This document shows, one piece after another, positions 2,520 through 11,845 of a stretch of 12,167 nt of DNA (within the stretch, counting starts at the first letter, position 1; each line of letters starts with the position of its first letter). This DNA is from Pseudomonadota bacterium (GTDB taxonomy: Bacteria; Pseudomonadota; Gammaproteobacteria; Burkholderiales; Gallionellaceae), in assembly GCA_021822115.1 (NCBI GenBank), contig JAJZSA010000068.1, positions 1 to 12,167 on the forward strand. Reading direction: 5' to 3'. The translations under genes were made by a program, and so were the position numbers. The notes beneath the pieces were generated by a model that worked only from the letters and a program-made list of their open reading frames with translations, did no database searches and had not been told where the DNA came from.

Positions 2520-3214
2520 GCCGCCTCCTCGCCATCCTGGTTGCGCGCGAACACGTAACCCGCACCGCGCAAGGTGATGATGCGGCGCGGGTGTTTGGGA
2601 TCGTCCTCGATGGCCGCACGGATACGCGAGATGTGCACATCGATGGAACGATCGAAGGCTTCCAGCGGTTCGCCCTTCACCGCATCCAGCAACTGCTCGC
2701 GGCTCATCACCCGCCCCGGCCGCTCGGCCAGCGCCAGCAACAGGTCGAACTGATAGGCCGTCATCTCGCACGGCTGGCCGTCCACGCGCACCAGCCGCGC
2801 GCCGCGATCGATCTCCAACCGGCCGAAACGCAAGGCCTCGCCGGCACCGGACTTGCCCCGGCGCAGGATGGCCTTCAGCCGCGCCAGCAATTCGCGCGGT
2901 TCGAACGGTTTGGGCAGGTAATCGTCGGCGCCCATCTCCAGCCCGAGGATGCGATCCATCGCCTCGCCGCGCGCGGTGAGCATCAGCACCGGGATGTCGG
3001 AGAAGCTGCGCAACTGGCGGCACGCTTCCAGCCCATCGCCGTCCGGCAGCATCAGGTCCAGCACCAGCGCATCGAACGCCTCTTGTTTCAAGGCCTGCAA
3101 ACCGCTGGCGATGGTGTGGCGCGCCGCCACGCGATAGCCCGCGTCGCCCAGATACTGCTGCAACATGGCGCACAGGCGTTCGTCGTCGTCGATGATGAGG
3201 AGATGATGGCTCAT
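2516..3214 (-). CDS. CpxR-like OmpR-family response regulator, 232 aa
   Basis: A DNA-binding response regulator. The receiver domain (about residues 1-118) has the acidic triad Asp9-11, phosphoacceptor Asp53 (VLDLMLP), switch Thr80 and Lys102 (the run GADDYLPKPF). The OmpR-type winged helix spans about 127-226, ending in TLRGAGYVF. The block MLTARGEAMDRILGLEMGADD, and FDRSIDVHIS in the effector domain, closely resemble E. coli CpxR as I recall it, so I call it CpxR-like. The chosen start is the ATG at 3214 (MSHHLLIIDDDE), which gives the standard N-terminus; the frame continues upstream into a REP-like repeat and should not be used. The Shine-Dalgarno is weak. The kinase gene overlaps its stop codon. 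A Spy/CpxP-like gene lies upstream on the same strand, and a CpxR-box-like site precedes that gene, which implies autoregulation. Confidence 0.96.
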   Translation of the reverse strand: MSHHLLIIDDDERLCAMLQQYLGDAGYRVAARHTIASGLQALKQEAFDALVLDLMLPDGDGLEACRQLRSFSDIPVLMLTARGEAMDRILGLEMGADDYLPKPFEPRELLARLKAILRRGKSGAGEALRFGRLEIDRGARLVRVDGQPCEMTAYQFDLLLALAERPGRVMSREQLLDAVKGEPLEAFDRSIDVHISRIRAAIEDDPKHPRRIITLRGAGYVFARNQDGEEAA

Positions 3215-3236
3215 GGCATAGGTTCCAAAAAGTTGC

Positions 3237-3250
3237 CGCGCATCATAACA
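3237..3250 (-). promoter_or_regulatory. Candidate extended -10 promoter for the regulator-kinase pair
   Basis: On the minus strand TGTTATGAT (complement of about 3242-3250) is an extended -10 motif about 30 bp upstream of the regulator ATG. No good -35 lies 17 bp upstream, so this would depend on the TG extension. It could give the regulator and kinase a promoter of their own, separate from the Spy-like gene and inside of the REP pair. Confidence 0.3.
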
Positions 3251-3271
3251 AGCGATGCAGACTTCCATACC

Positions 3272-3299
3272 CGTCATACCGGCGCAGGCCGGTATCCAG
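3272..3299 (+). repeat. REP-like palindromic element, copy 1
   Basis: This 28-bp unit contains an 8-bp perfect stem (ATACCGGC at 3276-3283 with GCCGGTAT at 3288-3295) around a GCAG loop. An exact inverted copy lies at 3369-3396. Related 'GTCAT.CCGGCGCAGGCCGG' units are dispersed intergenic REP-type repeats in many proteobacteria, often mobilised by RAYT transposases. No such transposase lies in the window. Confidence 0.8.
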
Positions 3300-3368
3300 C
3301 GAATAAACACCCCGCGCAGCGGACAACATCCTGATGTAGCACGGCTTGCGCCGGAGTGGTCTTCACAA

Positions 3369-3396
3369 CTGGATACCGGCCTGCGCCGGTATGACG
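3369..3396 (-). repeat. REP-like palindromic element, inverted copy 2
   Basis: This is the perfect 28-bp reverse complement of 3272-3299, separated from it by 69 bp; the identity stops at both ends of the unit. It lies 15 bp past the stop codon of the Spy-like gene. Its own hairpin could therefore slow or end transcription, or protect the 3' end of that mRNA, before the regulator gene. The head-to-head pair resembles a BIME/REPIN arrangement. Confidence 0.8.
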
Positions 3397-3411
3397 TGCG
3401 GGAAGATGACT

Positions 3412-3990
3412 TTACTCGCGCCCCATCCTGCCGCGACGCTGCTCCATCTTCTGCGCCAGTTGTGCGCGCTGCTCCGGCGTCAGCACCTCGGCCACGGCCA
3501 GCATGGTGGCCGTCATCTGCTTGCTGGCTTCGTCCGCCAGTTTGATCTGTTCGGCACGCAGGGTCTCGATGGCGCCCTTATCCAGCTCGGCGGCCGCCAT
3601 CAGCTTGCGCATCTGCACATGGTTGTCGCGCATTTTCTCGGCCAGCGGTGCGCCCTGTTTCAGTGCGGCCTGCACGATCTCGCCGGCCTTGGCCTTCTGT
3701 GCGTCGCTGGCTTTCACCTCGTCCAGCATGTGTTGCATACGCTTGTCGGCGAACTTGCCCATGCGCGCGCCATCCAGCGGCGCACCGGACATGAAGGCGG
3801 CCGGCCCGCCGTGGTGCATATCCTGTCCGCAGGCCATCACCTTGCCCGAGAAGAAACCGATGCCGAACACCGCCAGCAGGCCCACGATGCGCGCCACGCA
3901 ATGGCCGCGCCGGCCATGGCAATGATGGTCGTGGCGACCGTTGCAACGTTGCTTGTCGTTCGTATCCGGGTTTGTGTTATGTTCGCTCAT
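3412..3990 (-). CDS. Spy/CpxP-like envelope stress protein (LTxxQ family), membrane-anchored, 192 aa
   Basis: The ATG at 3990 has a clear ribosome binding site (GGAGAAGGAC directly upstream). Residues 1-31 form an unusual cytoplasmic tail rich in His and Cys (Cys16, His20, His22, His23, Cys24, His25, His30, Cys31). Residues about 33-50 are a single membrane anchor (IVGLLAVFGIGFFSG) without an obvious lipobox. The rest is a periplasmic, all-helical, charged domain of the Spy/CpxP fold with one clear LTxxQ motif (LTPEQ, residues 170-174). The expected first motif near residues 89-100 is degenerate. Proteins of this family act as periplasmic chaperones, metal-responsive modulators or brakes on CpxA-type kinases. 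The location upstream of a CpxRA-like pair, below a CpxR-box-like site, supports that role here. The metal-binding function of the tail is inference. Confidence 0.88.
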   Translation of the reverse strand: MSEHNTNPDTNDKQRCNGRHDHHCHGRRGHCVARIVGLLAVFGIGFFSGKVMACGQDMHHGGPAAFMSGAPLDGARMGKFADKRMQHMLDEVKASDAQKAKAGEIVQAALKQGAPLAEKMRDNHVQMRKLMAAAELDKGAIETLRAEQIKLADEASKQMTATMLAVAEVLTPEQRAQLAQKMEQRRGRMGRE

Positions 3991-4040
3991 GTCCTTCTCC
4001 TTGTTCGGTTGATGCCGCACCTGCGTGGCGGCTGGATGTC

Positions 4041-4046
4041 ACTGTA
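4041..4046 (-). promoter_or_regulatory. Possible -10 box for the Spy/CpxP-like gene
   Basis: TACAGT on the minus strand lies about 50 bp upstream of the ATG at 3990. It would put the start of transcription near 4034 and the CpxR-box-like repeat at about -45 to -59, a position suited to activation. The -35 is poor, as expected for an activator-dependent promoter. The assignment is tentative. Confidence 0.28.
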
Positions 4047-4047
4047 G

Positions 4048-4076
4048 GGGCGACCGTTTGCGGAGAGTTGTCGCCC
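4048..4076. repeat. 7-bp inverted repeat in the divergent spacer
   Basis: GGGCGAC (4048-4054) and GTCGCCC (4070-4076) form an inverted repeat with a 15-base spacer, between the possible -10 of the Spy-like gene and the CpxR-box-like site. It could be an operator or a DNA hairpin. It may also be chance in GC-rich DNA. Confidence 0.3.
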
Positions 4077-4078
4077 AG

Positions 4079-4093
4079 GTAAAGAAATGTGAA
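4079..4093 (+). promoter_or_regulatory. CpxR-box-like direct repeat
   Basis: GTAAA-GAAAT-GTGAA matches nine of ten positions of the enterobacterial CpxR box GTAAA-N5-GTAAA with exact spacing. It lies 89 bp upstream of the Spy/CpxP-like start and about 30 bp upstream of the FliA -35 of the divergent cyclase. With a CpxR-like regulator encoded next door, the simplest reading is autoregulation of the stress operon, possibly with an effect on the cyclase too. Confidence 0.55.
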
Positions 4094-4109
4094 GCGGTAC
4101 GGCACGGGC

Positions 4110-5405: not shown

Positions 5406-5857
5406 GTCACCGCGCGACCTATCGTTGCATTGACACGCCCCGCATCGCTCGCCTAAAGTTCCGCCCCACTTGCAGATCTGCCCGCAGTACATCGCGCCGC
5501 ACGCACGGCACGAGGCTCACGGCAAAGTTCCCAGAACAGGATGGCTGGCGCAAGGAAGATTCCCGCACCGATGGGAACGCAGCTCGCCATACAACTGTTC
5601 GCAAAAGGGGAAGCACTTGTCAAAACCATCACACGCACATCCTGCGGCCATTGTCGCATCGCCCTCTCCTAGCCCCTGGTTTTCCCGTCGCCCACATTGC
5701 CAAGTCCCAGAAATTTATGGTCAAGAGCAGAGGCCCGCTGGTAATAAGGAAAAGCTCGCACTGGTTTACCTGAAGGGACGATTGCCCTCGCTGCCGACCG
5801 AGCTGACTTCGGATGCGTGGTTGAGAGTGGGAGTGAAATGTTGAAGAGAGTACATCC
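5406..5857. other. 452-bp region without a convincing gene
   Basis: Open frames on both strands here have odd composition (runs of Pro, Ser, His and Arg), lack ribosome binding sites and show no domain. I see no tRNA, no strong promoter and no T-run terminator after the cyclase. A 10-bp perfect palindrome, GCAGATCTGC, lies at 5472-5481. Base composition becomes AT-richer just before the ATPase gene. The stretch may be a degraded gene, the edge of the accessory module, or an unrecognised regulatory or RNA element. Confidence 0.5.
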
Positions 5858-7420
5858 ATGACCATCGTTACCAAACTACACGTTCAAAAATTAAAACGCC
5901 TAGAAAATGTAACGATTGAATTCCCAGAAAAGGGGGTCGTGGCATTGTTAGGCGAGAATGGCACGGGAAAAACAACCGTACTTCACGCGTTAGCATGTCT
6001 CTATAAACCTCACCCACAATTGCAGATAGAACGAGGAGACGTAGGAAATTGGTGGACGGACTGGTTCGTTCCTCACACAGGTAATTTTTGGCGAAACTCT
6101 GAACTAAAGGCACATTTCAAAGGCATTCCTGACGGAATTACTTACAAAAAACTGCAGGACCGTTGGAGTCCTCGCAAAGATGATCGGCAAGAACGCTACA
6201 CGCGATACATCGGATTCAAGGATTGCATGCCGCATATCGAGGAGGAATATCAACGCTCTAGATTTGAATTCAATTTGCAGGCGCTTGATTTAAGTGCCTC
6301 TAAGCGCAGCCAACTTCTTGGCGCCGCGAGGCGAATTCTGAACCGCAACTATCAAGACATTCAGCGCGCAACGAAAGGGTATGGTCTCGGACGGTTTCTT
6401 TACGCCACCATTCTTCAAGGACAACCACCTACAACATCCTCTTATCCTTCGCACTATATGGGCGCTGGTGAGCAAAAAGTACTGAAAATTATTGAAGAGA
6501 TAGTACGAGCACCTAACGGAGCCATGCTCTTGTTTGAAGAATTCGAGGTGGCGATTCATGAGTCAGCGTTGCGCAGACTTATTCCTTGGCTAGCTGAACA
6601 AGCAGACGAGAAAAATCTACAAATCATTGTTTCAACGCATTGGCCTCGTATGACAGAGTTTCACGAACAGATTCACCTACGGACATTGCACGCTACTCCT
6701 TTAGGTGGAATCACCTGCATTAACGGCTTTAAGCCATCAACCATGCATCGAATAACCGGAGATCTTGCAGATCTTCGGTTAATTACAGTATGGGTTGAGG
6801 ACAAGCTTGCCGAAAAGATTGTCGAACAAATAGCCTCCGAATTGAGGCTGTCGCCAAGTGTTACTACGAAGATTTTTGGAGCCATAAACAATTCTTTTTC
6901 GGTCGCCGCCGCGTTGGAACTAGATTCAGCAGACAGGATAAAAAATATTGTCGTGCTAGACGGTGACCGCTATCGCACTGATGCGGAAAAACTAGAACGA
7001 CTAAATGCCACACTGTCTGGCACAGGTAGCCAAATCGATGCAACCCGACAGAGCGCGCTAGCTTGGTTTGCACAATTCAATCCCGTCGAAAGTGACCCTA
7101 CTCTTCCACAAACCCCAATTAATCCAGAGAGATTTTTACTCAACGCGGCCATGCGCTCTCACCAAGCTGGCAAAACGAACTCCTATATTCAACAATATTT
7201 TGAATATGCGGCAGGGAACATCTTTGAAGACCCTGACAAGACTTTGATTTACAACATCCATCGACATTTCGGGCAACCTATTGATCGCGTCGAACACATT
7301 CTTGTGGAAGCTGCTAGTCAAGACGATTCATGGTTAGTCTTCCGACAAAACTTACGTGAGAGATTGATTGCTTCGGCTACAGCTCTAGGACTTGAGCCAA
7401 ACTCAGGCTTAGGAGCCTAG
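5858..7420 (+). CDS. OLD-like ATPase with C-terminal TOPRIM domain (GajA-like), 520 aa
   Basis: The N-terminal ABC/SMC-type ATPase carries Walker A GENGTGKTT (residues 32-40), a signature-like GAGEQ (202-206), a Walker B region LLFEEFE (224-230, with Glu where Asp is usual) and an H-loop His261 (STHW). From about residue 308 a TOPRIM-like domain follows: VWVEDKLAEKIVE (Glu314), a turn at GAINN (341-345) and the metal-binding DGD at 368-370 (VVLDGD). A helical tail contains PINPERFLL. This is the layout of OLD-family nucleases, including GajA of Gabija. The start gives the expected N-terminus, although the ribosome binding site is weak. The gene is AT-rich: 25 and 26 G/C per 60 bases at 6241-6300 and 7081-7140, against 39 at 8161-8220 in the next gene, a sign of horizontal transfer. 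A NERD-helicase gene follows after 41 bp. Alternative: a stand-alone OLD nuclease. Confidence 0.87.
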   Translation: MTIVTKLHVQKLKRLENVTIEFPEKGVVALLGENGTGKTTVLHALACLYKPHPQLQIERGDVGNWWTDWFVPHTGNFWRNSELKAHFKGIPDGITYKKLQDRWSPRKDDRQERYTRYIGFKDCMPHIEEEYQRSRFEFNLQALDLSASKRSQLLGAARRILNRNYQDIQRATKGYGLGRFLYATILQGQPPTTSSYPSHYMGAGEQKVLKIIEEIVRAPNGAMLLFEEFEVAIHESALRRLIPWLAEQADEKNLQIIVSTHWPRMTEFHEQIHLRTLHATPLGGITCINGFKPSTMHRITGDLADLRLITVWVEDKLAEKIVEQIASELRLSPSVTTKIFGAINNSFSVAAALELDSADRIKNIVVLDGDRYRTDAEKLERLNATLSGTGSQIDATRQSALAWFAQFNPVESDPTLPQTPINPERFLLNAAMRSHQAGKTNSYIQQYFEYAAGNIFEDPDKTLIYNIHRHFGQPIDRVEHILVEAASQDDSWLVFRQNLRERLIASATALGLEPNSGLGA

Positions 7421-7461
7421 AAAACTAGAAAGGTCAGATTCTTAATAATCCTCCACACACC

Positions 7462-9279
7462 ATGGCCACCCTCATTCCCTCCCTAGGCTCCGCCAAATTC
7501 GACACTCGCGGCGAACTACGCCTTGCCGAGCGACTGAAAGACTGTCTCGAAGACAACGCCTGGGTGTGGCACAACATTCCGGTGGGGCCTTTCGGCAAGC
7601 ATCCTGATTTTGTGGCGCTGCATCCGCAGCAGGGCATCGTGGTGCTGGAAGTCAAAGACTGGCGGCTGGATACGATAGGTAACGCGAACAGCAAGCAAGT
7701 CGAACTGATCACGGATCGGGGCAATGTATCGGCCGACAATCCTTTCGAGCAGGTGCGCGGCTACATGTACAACGTAGTGAGTACGCTGAAGCGCGACCCG
7801 CTGCTGGTGATCGAAAGCGGCACCTTCAAGGGTCAACCTGTATTCCCGTTTGGGCATGGCGTGGTGTTTTCCAACATCACGCGCAAACAATTCGACCAGA
7901 CCGATCTGCATGAGGTGTTTCCGCCTGAGCGTTGCATCTTCCGCGATGAGATGTCAGAGAGCGTCGATCCCGATGAATTCCGTGAACGGATTTGGCGCAT
8001 GGTGTCGCGCCGCCTGGGTTCTGGATTGAGTTTGCCCCAGATCGACCGGGTGCGCGCATTGCTGTTCCCCGAGATACGCGTGACGCAAATCGCTTTGCCA
8101 TTCGATGAACCTGCTGCCAAGGTTTCTCCTGCGGATGACCGTTTGCTGGCGGTGATGGATATGCAGCAGGAGTTGTTGGCGCGCAGCATGGGCGAAGGAC
8201 ACCGCATCGTGCGCGGAGTGGCGGGTTCTGGCAAGACGCTGATCCTTGCGTTCCGTGCCGAGCAGATCGCGCGTGCGGCGAATCGTCCGGTATTGCTGTT
8301 GAGTTTTGCGAACGGCATTTCGGGGCGGCTGGAGAATGCGATGCAGGATCGCGGTGTGGAAGACAAAGTGATTGTCTCGACCTTCCATGCCTGGTGCTGG
8401 AAGATGCTGCGCACTTATGGCCTGCCGATCACCACTGAGAAAGATATTCCCGACTTTAGTGAACGGCAGGCCGCCAATGTGCAGGCCGTGCTAGACGCTG
8501 CCGAACGCGGGCTGATCCCTGGCGGGCAATACGATGCGGTGTTGATCGACGAGGCGCACGATTTTGAGCCGCAATGGCTGGCGCTGGCAGCAAAGATGGT
8601 GAACCCGGACACCAAGGCGCTGATGATCGTTTATGACGATGCGCAGGCGATCTACAAGGGGCGTAAACGGCCGGTATGGAAGCAGCTCGGCATCGAGGCG
8701 GCGGGTCGCACTTCGGTGCTCAAGGTGAATTACCGCAACACTGCGCAGATATTGCGCTTCGCCCGCAAGTTCGCCGCCGATGTGATTGGTGCCCCCGGTG
8801 TGTGTGCCGGTGAAGAGAGTGCCGTGCTGATGCCGGAAGACGGCGGCCGCGAGGGGGTGGAACCGGTGGTGCGCCAGTGTGTGAACTATGATGGCGAAGC
8901 ACATGCAATTGCCGAATGGTTGCTGGGACGCAAGGCCGCCGGTTATCAGTGGGGACAGATGGCAGTGTTGTATCCCCGGCATTTCATCGGAGAGCGCTTC
9001 GAGAAGATTCTGGTGAAACAAGGTGTGCCGGTGGATGTGGCAAAAGATCATCACAATCGCGTGGATACAAAGTGCGATGCGGTTCGCTTCCTCTCCATGC
9101 ACACTTCCAAAGGACTGGAGTTCCCCTGTGTAGCGATCGGCGGATTGGGAGAGTTGAAGAAACCTGAAGACATCGAAGACGACATCCGCCTCACCTACGT
9201 CGCCATCACCCGCGCCACGCATGAGGCATTCATTACTTACTCGCACATATCGGAGTTGGTGAGCCGGTTGGTGGTGTGA
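7462..9279 (+). CDS. NERD nuclease-UvrD-like helicase fusion, 605 aa
   Basis: Residues about 11-125 form a nuclease-related (NERD) domain of the PD-(D/E)xK type, with Asp49 (HPDFVAL) and Glu63/Lys65 (VLEVKDW) as likely catalytic residues. Residues about 225-605 are a compact superfamily 1A helicase: a Q-motif near MQQE, Walker A GVAGSGKT (252-259, Lys258), motif Ia around LLLSFAN, motif II DEAH (363-366), motif III YDDAQAIY, motif IV VNYRNT (422-427), motif V MHTSKGLEF and motif VI YVAITRA (579-585). The motor is short for the UvrD/PcrA group, so accessory subdomains are probably reduced. All motifs look intact. The start MATLIPSLG is typical of NERD proteins despite a poor Shine-Dalgarno. 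It lies 41 bp after the OLD-like ATPase gene. The pair suggests a nucleic-acid-targeting defence system; a DNA repair role is possible. Confidence 0.9.
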   Translation: MATLIPSLGSAKFDTRGELRLAERLKDCLEDNAWVWHNIPVGPFGKHPDFVALHPQQGIVVLEVKDWRLDTIGNANSKQVELITDRGNVSADNPFEQVRGYMYNVVSTLKRDPLLVIESGTFKGQPVFPFGHGVVFSNITRKQFDQTDLHEVFPPERCIFRDEMSESVDPDEFRERIWRMVSRRLGSGLSLPQIDRVRALLFPEIRVTQIALPFDEPAAKVSPADDRLLAVMDMQQELLARSMGEGHRIVRGVAGSGKTLILAFRAEQIARAANRPVLLLSFANGISGRLENAMQDRGVEDKVIVSTFHAWCWKMLRTYGLPITTEKDIPDFSERQAANVQAVLDAAERGLIPGGQYDAVLIDEAHDFEPQWLALAAKMVNPDTKALMIVYDDAQAIYKGRKRPVWKQLGIEAAGRTSVLKVNYRNTAQILRFARKFAADVIGAPGVCAGEESAVLMPEDGGREGVEPVVRQCVNYDGEAHAIAEWLLGRKAAGYQWGQMAVLYPRHFIGERFEKILVKQGVPVDVAKDHHNRVDTKCDAVRFLSMHTSKGLEFPCVAIGGLGELKKPEDIEDDIRLTYVAITRATHEAFITYSHISELVSRLVV

Positions 9280-9366: not shown

Positions 9367-10668
9367 ATGCCCATCAAGCCTGAAGACCGCGCCTACGCGC
9401 AAGATCTGTTGAAATTCATCGACGCCAGCCCCAGCCCGTGGCATGCCGTGCAGTCCATCACGCAACGTTTGCAGGCGCAGGGGTTCGCGCCGCTGCAGGA
9501 GAAGCTGCGCTGGAAGCTGGAGGCTGGCGCTGGTTATTACGTGGTGCGCGGTGCATCGCTGATCGCTTTCCGCATCGGGCGGCAACCTTTGGCGGATAGC
9601 GGTTTGCGCATGATAGGCGCGCATACCGATTCACCTGGCTTGCGCCTGAAGACGAATGCGGCGCAGGCCAGTGAGGGCGTGGTGCGATTGGGGGTGGAGG
9701 TTTACGGCGGGCCGATACTGGCGACCTTTACCGACCGCGATCTGGGCCTGGCCGGTCGCGTGAATGTGCGCACGGCACAGGGTTTTGAAACACGTTTGGT
9801 CGATTTCGATCAGCCGCTGCTGCGCCTGCCCAACCTCGCCATCCACATGAATCGTGAGGTGAACGAGCAAGGCCTCAAGCTGAACAAGCAGACCGAGTTG
9901 CCTTTGCTGCTCGGCATGGCCGATGACAAGCTGCCCGCTGGTGAACGATTCCTCAAGCTGCTGGCAGATGCGTTGCAGGTGCAGACGGCAGACATCCTCA
10001 CTTATGAGCTGGCCGTGACCGATACCCAGCCCGGTGCGTTCTGGGGAGCGGAGCAGGAGTTCATCGCCAGCAGCCAGATCGATAATCTGGCCTCTTGCCA
10101 CGCCGCGCTGACTGCCCTGCTCGCCACGGCCACGCCCACGGCCACCTGCATCGCCGCGTTCTTCGACCATGAGGAAGTGGGCAGCGAAAGCGCTGCGGGC
10201 GCGGGCGGTAGTTTTGCCAGCGATGTGATCGCGCGCATCTCGCTGTGTCTGAGGCTGGATGAGGAGCAACAGCATTGCGCGGCGGCCCACAGCTTTTTCA
10301 TCAGCGCGGACATGGCGCACGCTTACCAGCCCAACTTCCCCAATGCCTATGAACCCAACCATCGCGTGCAGATGAATGCCGGCCCGGTGATCAAGACCAA
10401 TGCCAACCAACGCTACAGCACCAATGCGGATACCGCCGCGCGTTTCATCACGCTGTGCGAAGGTGCCGGCGTGCCCTGCCAGAACTACACCCACCGCACC
10501 GACCTCGGCTGCGGCAGCACCATCGGCCCTATCGTCGCAGCCAGCCTGGGCATCGCCAGCGTGGATGTCGGATCACCCATGTGGGCCATGCACAGCCTGC
10601 GTGAAAGCGCCGGCGTGCAGGATGTGGCTTATATGATCAGGGTGATGAAGGCGGCGTTCGGTAGCTAA
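9367..10668 (+). CDS. apeB: M18 family aminopeptidase ApeB, 433 aa
   Basis: A cytosolic dinuclear-zinc aminopeptidase of the M18 (aspartyl aminopeptidase-like) family, which removes N-terminal residues from peptides. The length is typical. Family landmarks appear in order: the N-terminal SPSPWHAV (residues 21-28); GAHTDSPGL with His86 and Asp88; VYGGP; SSQIDNLAS with Asp239; FFDHEEVGSES with catalytic Glu269 and Glu270; ISADMAHA with Asp315; NQRYSTNADT; and the C-terminal MHSLRE with His409. His86, Asp239, Glu270, Asp315 and His409 are the expected metal ligands, so the enzyme looks functional. The start has only a weak purine stretch (AAGAAAG) before it, but the N-terminus aligns with the family as I know it. 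It has its own candidate promoter and is followed directly by a hairpin terminator. It is a housekeeping gene adjoining the accessory module. Confidence 0.96.
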   Translation: MPIKPEDRAYAQDLLKFIDASPSPWHAVQSITQRLQAQGFAPLQEKLRWKLEAGAGYYVVRGASLIAFRIGRQPLADSGLRMIGAHTDSPGLRLKTNAAQASEGVVRLGVEVYGGPILATFTDRDLGLAGRVNVRTAQGFETRLVDFDQPLLRLPNLAIHMNREVNEQGLKLNKQTELPLLLGMADDKLPAGERFLKLLADALQVQTADILTYELAVTDTQPGAFWGAEQEFIASSQIDNLASCHAALTALLATATPTATCIAAFFDHEEVGSESAAGAGGSFASDVIARISLCLRLDEEQQHCAAAHSFFISADMAHAYQPNFPNAYEPNHRVQMNAGPVIKTNANQRYSTNADTAARFITLCEGAGVPCQNYTHRTDLGCGSTIGPIVAASLGIASVDVGSPMWAMHSLRESAGVQDVAYMIRVMKAAFGS

Positions 10669-10804: not shown

Positions 10805-11845
10805 ATGCTTCTTTCACAACTCACCCAACGCCTGACCGACCTCGGCTGCAAGCCTTGCCATGTCGACCGCCTGCTGCGCGGCTGGTCGCAGGTGAAGTCT
10901 TACGACCGCAAGGGCAGCCCGGCGGCGACGTTCTTTCCAGCGGCAGTGCGTGAGGCGTTGCCCGGTATCGAAGTAGAGTTGGCAGGGTTGGCACGACTGC
11001 ATGGTGAATACCCGGCGAATGAAGAAGTGGCACGCCTGCTGGTGGAACTGGCGGACGGACAGATGGTGGAGAGTGTGTTGCTGCCGCGCGGCGGGTTGTG
11101 CATCTCGACGCAGGTAGGTTGTGCGGTGGGCTGTGTGTTCTGCATGAGTGGGCGCGATGGTTTGCAGCGCCAGCTTTCCAGTCTGGAGATGGTGGCGCAG
11201 GTGGTGCTGGCGCGCCGACGGCGCGCAGTCTCCAAGGTGGTGTTCATGGGCATGGGCGAGCCGGCACACAATCTGGACAACGTGCTGGAGGCGATCCAGT
11301 TGCTGGGCATGCAGGGCGACATCGCGCACAAGAACCTGGTGCTCTCCACGGTGGGCGATGTGCGGGTGTTCGAGCGGCTGCCGCAGCAGACGGTGAAACC
11401 CGCCCTCGCCCTCTCGCTGCATTCCACCAATGACGAGCTGCGTGCGCAGTTGTTGCCCAACACGCCGCGCATCCCGGTGGAAGAATTGGTGGCGCGCTGC
11501 GAGGAATATGCGCGCGCCACGCATTACCCCACGCAGTACCAGTGGACGCTGATCGAAGGCGTGAACGACAGCGATGCGGAACTGGCGCGCATCGTCGAAC
11601 TGCTCAGCGGCAAGTACGCGATCATGAACTTCATCCCGTTCAACGATGTGGAAGGTCTCCCCTATCGTCGCCCCGCCCCCGAGCGTTTGGCGCGCATGGT
11701 AGGCACACTGAAGCAACGCGGCATCATCACGCAGTTGCGCGATTCGGCCGGCCAGGATGTGGAAGGCGCATGCGGGCAGTTGCGCGCGCGGGCCGAGAAG
11801 AAAGCACGCAACCCTGCACGCCCCATCAGTCTGCTACCGCAATGA
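10805..11845 (+). CDS. RlmN/Cfr-family radical SAM RNA methyltransferase, 346 aa
   Basis: Members use radical SAM chemistry to methylate adenine C2 (RlmN: A2503 of 23S rRNA and tRNA A37) or C8 (Cfr). The [4Fe-4S] motif CxxxCxxC is at Cys106, Cys110 and Cys113 (GCAVGCVFC), the SAM-binding GMGEP at 149-153, and the methyl-carrying Cys323 in EGACGQL, matching the conserved C-terminal Cys of RlmN. It differs from E. coli RlmN as I recall it: shorter than 384 aa, MSGRDGLQRQL after the cluster motif where RlmN has STAQQGFNRNL, and not next to the ndk/pilF/ispG genes that usually accompany rlmN. It may be a paralogue rather than the main RlmN, so no symbol is given. No Shine-Dalgarno is seen. A DUF1653 gene follows 11 bp downstream and is probably cotranscribed. 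Confidence 0.88.
   Translation: MLLSQLTQRLTDLGCKPCHVDRLLRGWSQVKSYDRKGSPAATFFPAAVREALPGIEVELAGLARLHGEYPANEEVARLLVELADGQMVESVLLPRGGLCISTQVGCAVGCVFCMSGRDGLQRQLSSLEMVAQVVLARRRRAVSKVVFMGMGEPAHNLDNVLEAIQLLGMQGDIAHKNLVLSTVGDVRVFERLPQQTVKPALALSLHSTNDELRAQLLPNTPRIPVEELVARCEEYARATHYPTQYQWTLIEGVNDSDAELARIVELLSGKYAIMNFIPFNDVEGLPYRRPAPERLARMVGTLKQRGIITQLRDSAGQDVEGACGQLRARAEKKARNPARPISLLPQ

Follow-up and report, generated by a model that had tools for sequence, protein, structure and literature searches.

The stretch analysed in this study (the window; 12,167 bp, contig JAJZSA010000068.1 of assembly GCA_021822115.1, from a Pseudomonadota bacterium of the Gallionellaceae) encodes an OLD-family ATPase-TOPRIM protein and, on the same (+) strand after a gap of 41 bp, a UvrD-type helicase carrying a NERD nuclease domain. 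The original prediction took the two genes for a Gabija-like pair. The comparisons described below suggest that they are separate modules, with the helicase as the fixed last gene of a recurring defence unit and the OLD gene as an exchangeable cargo. The core features are as follows.

5858..7420, + strand: OLD-family ATPase-TOPRIM protein of the HEC-04/IbfA type, 520 aa, GC 46%; probable exchangeable cargo of the window copy.
5951..5977, + strand: Walker A motif of the OLD protein, GENGTGKTT, residues 32-40 (motif and conservation).
6797..6967, + strand: TOPRIM acidic residues, E314 (6797-6799) and D368-G-D370 (6959-6967), with E424 and K461 further on.
7462..9279, + strand: NERD-UvrD helicase, 605 aa, GC 58%; probable constant 3' gene of the unit.
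7507..7788, + strand: NERD (PD-(D/E)xK) nuclease domain, residues 16-109, with E18, D49, E63 and K65 (Pfam PF08378, E 1e-11, and conservation).
8134..9276, + strand: UvrD-type superfamily 1 motor, residues ~225-605 (Pfam UvrD-helicase/UvrD_C).

The coordinates of the two open reading frames (ORFs; 5858-7420 and 7462-9279) confirmed the predicted 41-bp spacing, and the OLD ATPase-TOPRIM assignment, with Walker A GENGTGKTT, E314 and DGD at 368-370, also held: the catalytic positions, including E314, D368, D370, E424 and K461, show no variation across an alignment of 33 sequences that includes the window (30-85% identity). An ABC-like YPSHYMGAGE motif and Walker B lie between Walker A and the TOPRIM residues, and Pfam detected AAA_15 (1e-14) and AAA_21 (5e-13). 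With an AlphaFold2 model of the protein (mean predicted local distance difference test score, pLDDT, 86.9), Foldseek returned the Thermus OLD nuclease 6p74 as the top match (E 1.8e-10), followed by retron PtuA and GajA chains, the first GajA chain being 8x5i (E 5.6e-9). The TM-scores of the whole-length match are low, and the TOPRIM fold rests on this match because the VIA-align rows span only approximately residues 1-304. In a profile search of the PDB, 6p74 was again the best match, and no GajA-named chain was present among the 60 of 203 matches listed.

Among the PADLOC models, HEC-04 gave the OLD protein 107.3 bits (residues 4-378 of 520) versus 44.8 bits for the best GajA model, and HEC-04 was the top model for all seven OLD relatives tested (four from databases, two from plasmids and one chromosomal relative from the order-level search described below). 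The window protein is 28% identical to an IbfA-sized plasmid protein (518 aa), which is not confirmed as IbfA by accession. Judged by its sequence, the OLD protein groups with the single-gene HEC-04/IbfA proteins and not with GajA. According to PMC12111858, ibfA is homologous to HEC-04, and its product, encoded on a plasmid, has 518 aa and combines an ATPase with a TOPRIM domain. The same paper reports interference of IbfA with a P22-like phage, activity of HEC-04 against T4 and T5, and abortive infection by IbfA for one phage. A phage origin of the window gene was rejected, because the OLD protein had no match in 50,697 phage records and its relatives on viral contigs are only weak: scans of these contigs with single proteins found no relative, and an alignment-based scan found eight weak ones (24-26% identity across the six longer matches). 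General ATPase patterns scanned over genome contigs gave 16 short matches.

For the helicase, Pfam detected NERD (1e-11), UvrD_C (7e-16) and UvrD-helicase (1e-13). The N-terminal nuclease named in the original prediction was thus borne out by Pfam and by conserved residues: at loci where the alignment covers the position, E18 is kept in 60 of 61, D49 and E63 in 61 of 61 and K65 in 61 of 62, and the helicase motif residues are kept at 65 of 65 or 69 of 69 loci. The motor is indeed short compared with the PcrA, UvrD and Rep chains of ~650-770 aa in the PDB. A structural model of the helicase was poor (pLDDT 61.6). The PADLOC model C3a187 ('NERD+UvrD') matched residues 1-602, the full length, with 423.0 bits versus 84.0 for the best GajB model. 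We take 'C3a' to be a mark of type III CRISPR accessory proteins; no paper using the name C3a187 was found. A retron/DRT-associated helicase (RTasNERD-Hel) was also considered and rejected (62.5 bits versus 423 for C3a187); no reverse transcriptase was noticed on reading the ORFs of the window, of which those other than the genes treated here had no profile search. A review table includes NERD in the Nhi-like group (PMC10952713).

We searched three genome samples, which share a few genomes, for relatives of the helicase, and the order- and family-level samples also for relatives of the OLD protein. At E<=1e-60, the helicase turned up in 14 of the 274 genomes at class level, 31 of the 399 at order level and 33 of the 150 at family level. 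The helicase-locus set comprises 69 loci, each read with as much as 1.5 kb of flanking DNA to either side; 60 of the 69 have 1000 bp or more upstream. None of these flanks encodes an OLD relative; nor does any OLD gene occur in the larger fetched helicase regions (among them sets of 14 and 13, picked by helicase identity or for their long contigs). The OLD search (E<=1e-20), in which three candidates per order-level genome and at most 10 per family-level genome were scored and misses are possible, was positive in 1 of 399 order-level and 0 of 150 family-level genomes, and the sole positive genome is not among the 31 that carry the helicase. Its OLD gene (28% identity; L139, 7911-9482) lies among type I restriction-modification-like genes (named by reading), without the helicase. 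This distant HEC-04-type gene thus adds a further example of such an OLD gene sitting inside a defence locus. On plasmids, the OLD relatives of two regions (L027 and L029) have no NERD-UvrD helicase alongside, and helicase relatives in plasmid and Escherichia coli regions have no annotated OLD gene alongside. Conservation of the pair was judged from the helicase side, close OLD homologues being known as proteins only; seen from that side, homologues of the two genes are rarely adjacent elsewhere, the outcome that had been named in advance as telling against a fixed pair.

What stands upstream of the helicase was examined in 22 distinct close loci, including the window, that have a helicase identity of at least 65% and readable upstream DNA. 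L098, L101/L125, L103 and L105 were left out because the start of the helicase is missing, and two partial matches without an assigned locus (G748:C67 and G780:C73) were also left out. Across these loci the helicase stays in place as the last gene of the unit, and the upstream gene changes from one locus to the next. The upstream gene matched a PADLOC defence model at 15 of the 18 loci tested (E<=1e-8; upstream and downstream genes chosen by eye from ORF lists), which supports the defence context inferred in the original prediction, and the downstream gene at 1 of 10 (L120, at +941; three of these control genes are located 0.9-1.5 kb from the helicase). At all 18 tested loci the upstream gene is on the strand of the helicase, and at 17 the gap is 10-182 bp; at the exception, L114, the tested gene is 294 bp from the helicase and a 108-aa ORF, without a PADLOC test, lies between. 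The cargoes matched by PADLOC, at loci whose helicases are 65-92% identical to that of the window, are listed below.

Window: HEC-04.
L117: Tmn.
L118: fused AriAB (PARIS).
L113: AriA and AriB (PARIS).
L119: PDC-S46 and PDC-S73.
L120: PDC-S73.
L114: PDC-M49A.
L121: PsyrT and PsyrA.
L123: PDC-S01.
L124: PDC-S04.
L075: restriction-enzyme model.
L076: MTase_I (type I methylase).
L077: PDC-S63.
L115: PDC-M21B/AbiEii; helicase split.
L143: TIR protein PDC-S66; helicase broken.

Many of these cargoes include a part of the nuclease, TOPRIM or NTPase kind. Three tested upstream genes had no PADLOC match: those at L073, at L122 (identified by Pfam as a sensor kinase) and at L100/L142 (SIR2-like, with Pfam below the cut-off). 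Broken helicase copies were found at L104, L115 and L143. At L115, the helicase is split (7998-8834 and 12764-13759), its first 279 codons being inverted relative to the rest, and an AbiEii-like gene lies beside the inverted piece. On the minus strand of L141 (1971-4004), the match to a relative of the helicase spans query residues 62-599 only and lacks the NERD part; this relative has a different N-terminus and a SEG copy (the repeat described below) upstream.

Two flanking genes follow the helicase in the window, both named by reading only.

9367..10668, + strand: M18-type aminopeptidase-like gene; a 94% identical protein is encoded 3' of the helicase in L119.
10805..11845, + strand: RlmN-like radical S-adenosylmethionine (SAM) gene, downstream of the helicase in seven fetched relatives.

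The rlmN-like gene lies 0.2 to ~6.5 kb downstream of the helicase in the window, L113, L114, L115, L117, L118, L119 and L121, where the cargoes are, in turn, HEC-04, PARIS, PDC-M49A, AbiE, Tmn, fused PARIS, PDC-S46+S73 and PsyrTA. The units of L120 and L123 are sited elsewhere, near ftsX- or ftsY-like genes (by reading). Base composition separates the two genes of the window: GC and GC at third codon positions (GC3) are 46% and 0.42 for the OLD gene and 58% and 0.70 for the helicase gene, and the flanks have a GC of 62-67%. In 12 of the 14 cargo genes measured, GC3 is 0.33-0.53 versus 0.70-0.82 for the helicases, the exceptions being L123 (0.73) and L124 (0.65). In the set of 14 larger regions, nucleotide homology begins at most 9 nt from the start codon of the helicase in 13 (the helicase of L125 has no start) and mostly stops at its stop codon. 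Fragments of the helicase gene are also found beside units: of its 5' end before the cargo (L123 and L124) and of its 3' end after the helicase (L116 and L118). They may have been left by recombination at the ends of the helicase gene. No integrase or transposase was read in the ORF lists as a constant part of the unit, with no profile search aimed at such genes. When one PARIS-carrying unit was compared as DNA with plasmids, the best 10 of 41 records showed only small pieces under ORF6N and RelE/ParE genes. The promoter/terminator scan of the window gave a number of sites below the shuffle mean and no + strand terminator-like site between the OLD and helicase genes, and no Rfam family reached its gathering threshold in the window.

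Upstream of the OLD gene, the window contains a leader with two recognizable parts.

5427..5621, + strand: SEG, a conserved non-coding segment and dispersed repeat of Gallionellaceae-like genomes (blastn).
5743..5832, + strand: remnant of a ubiE-like SAM methyltransferase gene, the last ~30 codons (tblastn; 80% identical to the L127 protein, 272 aa, over its residues 242-271).

A SEG match is present in 60 of the 150 family-level genomes, several of which have more than one, and blastn located SEG upstream of the cargo in six fetched relatives (L113, L114, L118, L119, L120 and L121). SEG and the cargo are often separated by an ORF6N gene, by a ubiE-like methyltransferase gene in intact or broken form, or by both; the methyltransferase gene (the L127 protein was typed by Pfam) is whole before the cargo in several relatives. 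Twelve SEG regions (L127-L138), each from a different genome, were taken from among the higher-scoring matches, but not strictly the top 12. In seven of them, SEG precedes the methyltransferase gene or its end, and accessory or defence-like genes follow. Ten genes that follow this leader in these seven helicase-free regions were tested, and four matched PADLOC: a PD-Lambda-5_A-like protein, a Fic piece, a type II methylase and a DRT DnaG-like protein. In L138, the RTasDnaG-like protein (3046-4095) lies directly after the SEG-methyltransferase leader.

More distant helicases were also considered, and four of the seven upstream genes tested matched PADLOC models (PDC-S02, a UvrD helicase, a type III restriction enzyme and PDC-S41). 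On a Nostoc plasmid (L028, 3713-7884), a 40% identical relative is preceded on the same strand by genes annotated as a deoxynucleoside kinase, a viperin-family protein and a UvrD helicase. A more distant relative, ~38% identical to the helicase, has matches in 1036 of 5426 complete E. coli genomes, 605 of them with at least 80% of the gene; 4 of 12 among the matches listed cover only 43%, with an IS66 transposase gene under the match.

Taken together, these findings favour two separate modules, a NERD-UvrD helicase as the fixed last gene and an exchangeable defence cargo upstream, and not a Gabija subtype; we assign this reading a probability of about two in three. The locus would then be one copy of a recurrent defence unit of Gallionellaceae-like Betaproteobacteria, in which a same-strand and often complete defence system precedes the helicase, with a single-gene HEC-04/IbfA-type OLD as the cargo of the window copy. 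The OLD and helicase genes are probably carried on one transcript, because they are separated by 41 bp on the same strand with no + strand terminator-like site between them. By analogy with IbfA and the Class 1 OLD proteins, the OLD protein may act alone as an ATP-controlled nuclease leading to abortive infection. Its domains suggest that the helicase could load on nicks, gaps or ends of invading DNA, arising from the cargo or from phage replication, and unwind it, and that the NERD domain would cut. Exchange of the cargo may proceed by recombination between two boundaries, the SEG-methyltransferase leader before it and the helicase, or the DNA flanking the helicase, after it. A role of the helicase as a general end processor is proposed because it is the simplest reason for one helicase standing after so many unrelated cargoes. 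We offer, as a tentative proposal that is well short of probable, that a shared DNA-end processor boosts unrelated upstream systems (PARIS, Tmn, PsyrTA, AbiE, restriction-modification, TIR and OLD), and that no dedicated integrase takes part in swapping the cargo, which would occur by recombination between the dispersed SEG-ORF6N-methyltransferase leader and the helicase or adjoining DNA.

Several observations weigh against the two-module reading. Seven of the 22 close loci lack a PADLOC-matched cargo: the three tested without a match and four (L074, L078, L116 and L126, without a PADLOC test) that have no convincing upstream neighbour. The downstream control is small and was chosen by eye, and defence-like genes also occur further downstream, at L120 (+941, by PADLOC), at L117 (AAA_14-type, +3026) and at L075 (AbiE-like), the last two by reading. 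Between the window and L119, synonymous divergence (dS) is 0.86 for the helicase versus 0.29 for the M18 gene; helicase and cargo may therefore move together, and not the cargo alone. As evidence on vertical inheritance of the helicase, this comparison is ambiguous. In E. coli, Klebsiella, Pantoea and on a Vibrio plasmid, relatives of the helicase have no annotated defence gene directly upstream, and the helicase may therefore be an independent gene that tends to collect in defence islands.

This last point leads to the alternative that survives best, namely that the helicase, as a helicase-nuclease directed at phage DNA and frequent in hot spots, is a single-gene defence in its own right and the OLD gene a mere neighbour in a defence island, neither needing the other. 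The enterobacterial genome and plasmid relatives and those close relatives that have no defence gene upstream fit such chance company, as does the altered phage plating on deletion or cloning of ibfA alone (PMC12111858). However, gene order, strand and spacing are not random: defence matches are concentrated upstream (15/18 versus 1/10 downstream), the strand is the same throughout and the gaps fall within 10-182 bp at 17 of 18 loci. We consider chance company unlikely, although it deserves to be taken seriously. Far less credible is a fixed pair in which the OLD protein and the NERD helicase form a GajA-GajB-like complex, whether as a divergent Gabija subtype or as a new two-gene system. Gene order is that of Gabija, the OLD fold is related to GajA (8x5i) and both proteins give weak GajA/GajB profile matches (45 and 84 bits), but other profile families fit both proteins far better, OLD is near none of the 69 helicase loci, and OLD relatives lack the helicase in 3/3 regions read (L027, L029 and L139). 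The Gabija subtype was therefore rejected on profile scores and because the pair, viewed from the helicase, is not conserved; the separate two-gene system of the original prediction fails on the latter count. That the helicase is a host DNA-repair gene whose defence neighbours have no immune meaning is highly improbable and was rejected: its UvrD/PcrA-type motor and nearly host-like base composition fit, but its patchy presence (31/399 and 33/150 genomes), broken copies (L104 and L115), distant relatives on plasmids and repeated company of defence genes do not.

With the two-module reading, a tempting Gabija call is corrected, and the case illustrates how gene order on its own misleads. Should the constant-helicase unit prove real, the interval between the SEG-methyltransferase leader and the helicase would be a trap for new defence systems, and the idea of one accessory nuclease-helicase serving many unrelated immune systems would become testable. 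The helicase family is accessible through the ~38% identical relative and its matches in 1036 of 5426 complete E. coli genomes.

In comparison with known systems, the OLD protein resembles HEC-04/IbfA (plasmids R64 and pUA1135) in length (520 versus 518 aa), in having the ATPase before TOPRIM and in its best PADLOC model; it differs in that its gene sits 41 bp before a NERD-UvrD helicase gene and in its 28% identity to the IbfA-sized protein. The helicase resembles PADLOC C3a187, matching it over the full length with intact active sites. In the OLD classification of PMC10568477, a review, Class 1 consists of single genes and Class 2 is Gabija, with the helicase downstream. The window shares with Gabija an OLD gene followed by a UvrD-type gene, and TOPRIM active-site residues in the OLD protein; it differs in profile scores, in the NERD domain on the helicase and in a pair that is unconserved from the helicase side. 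No paper describing this unit was found by title or by the start of the abstract, which is weak evidence given partial coverage of the literature. Embedded defences (HEC in Hma) and phage/satellite or Tn7 hot spots likewise place varied defence genes between fixed genes; the unit described here differs in that its fixed gene, on the 3' side, is itself a helicase-nuclease. The members of the unit thus belong to known families, and the new part is their arrangement, a variant of the defence hot spot.

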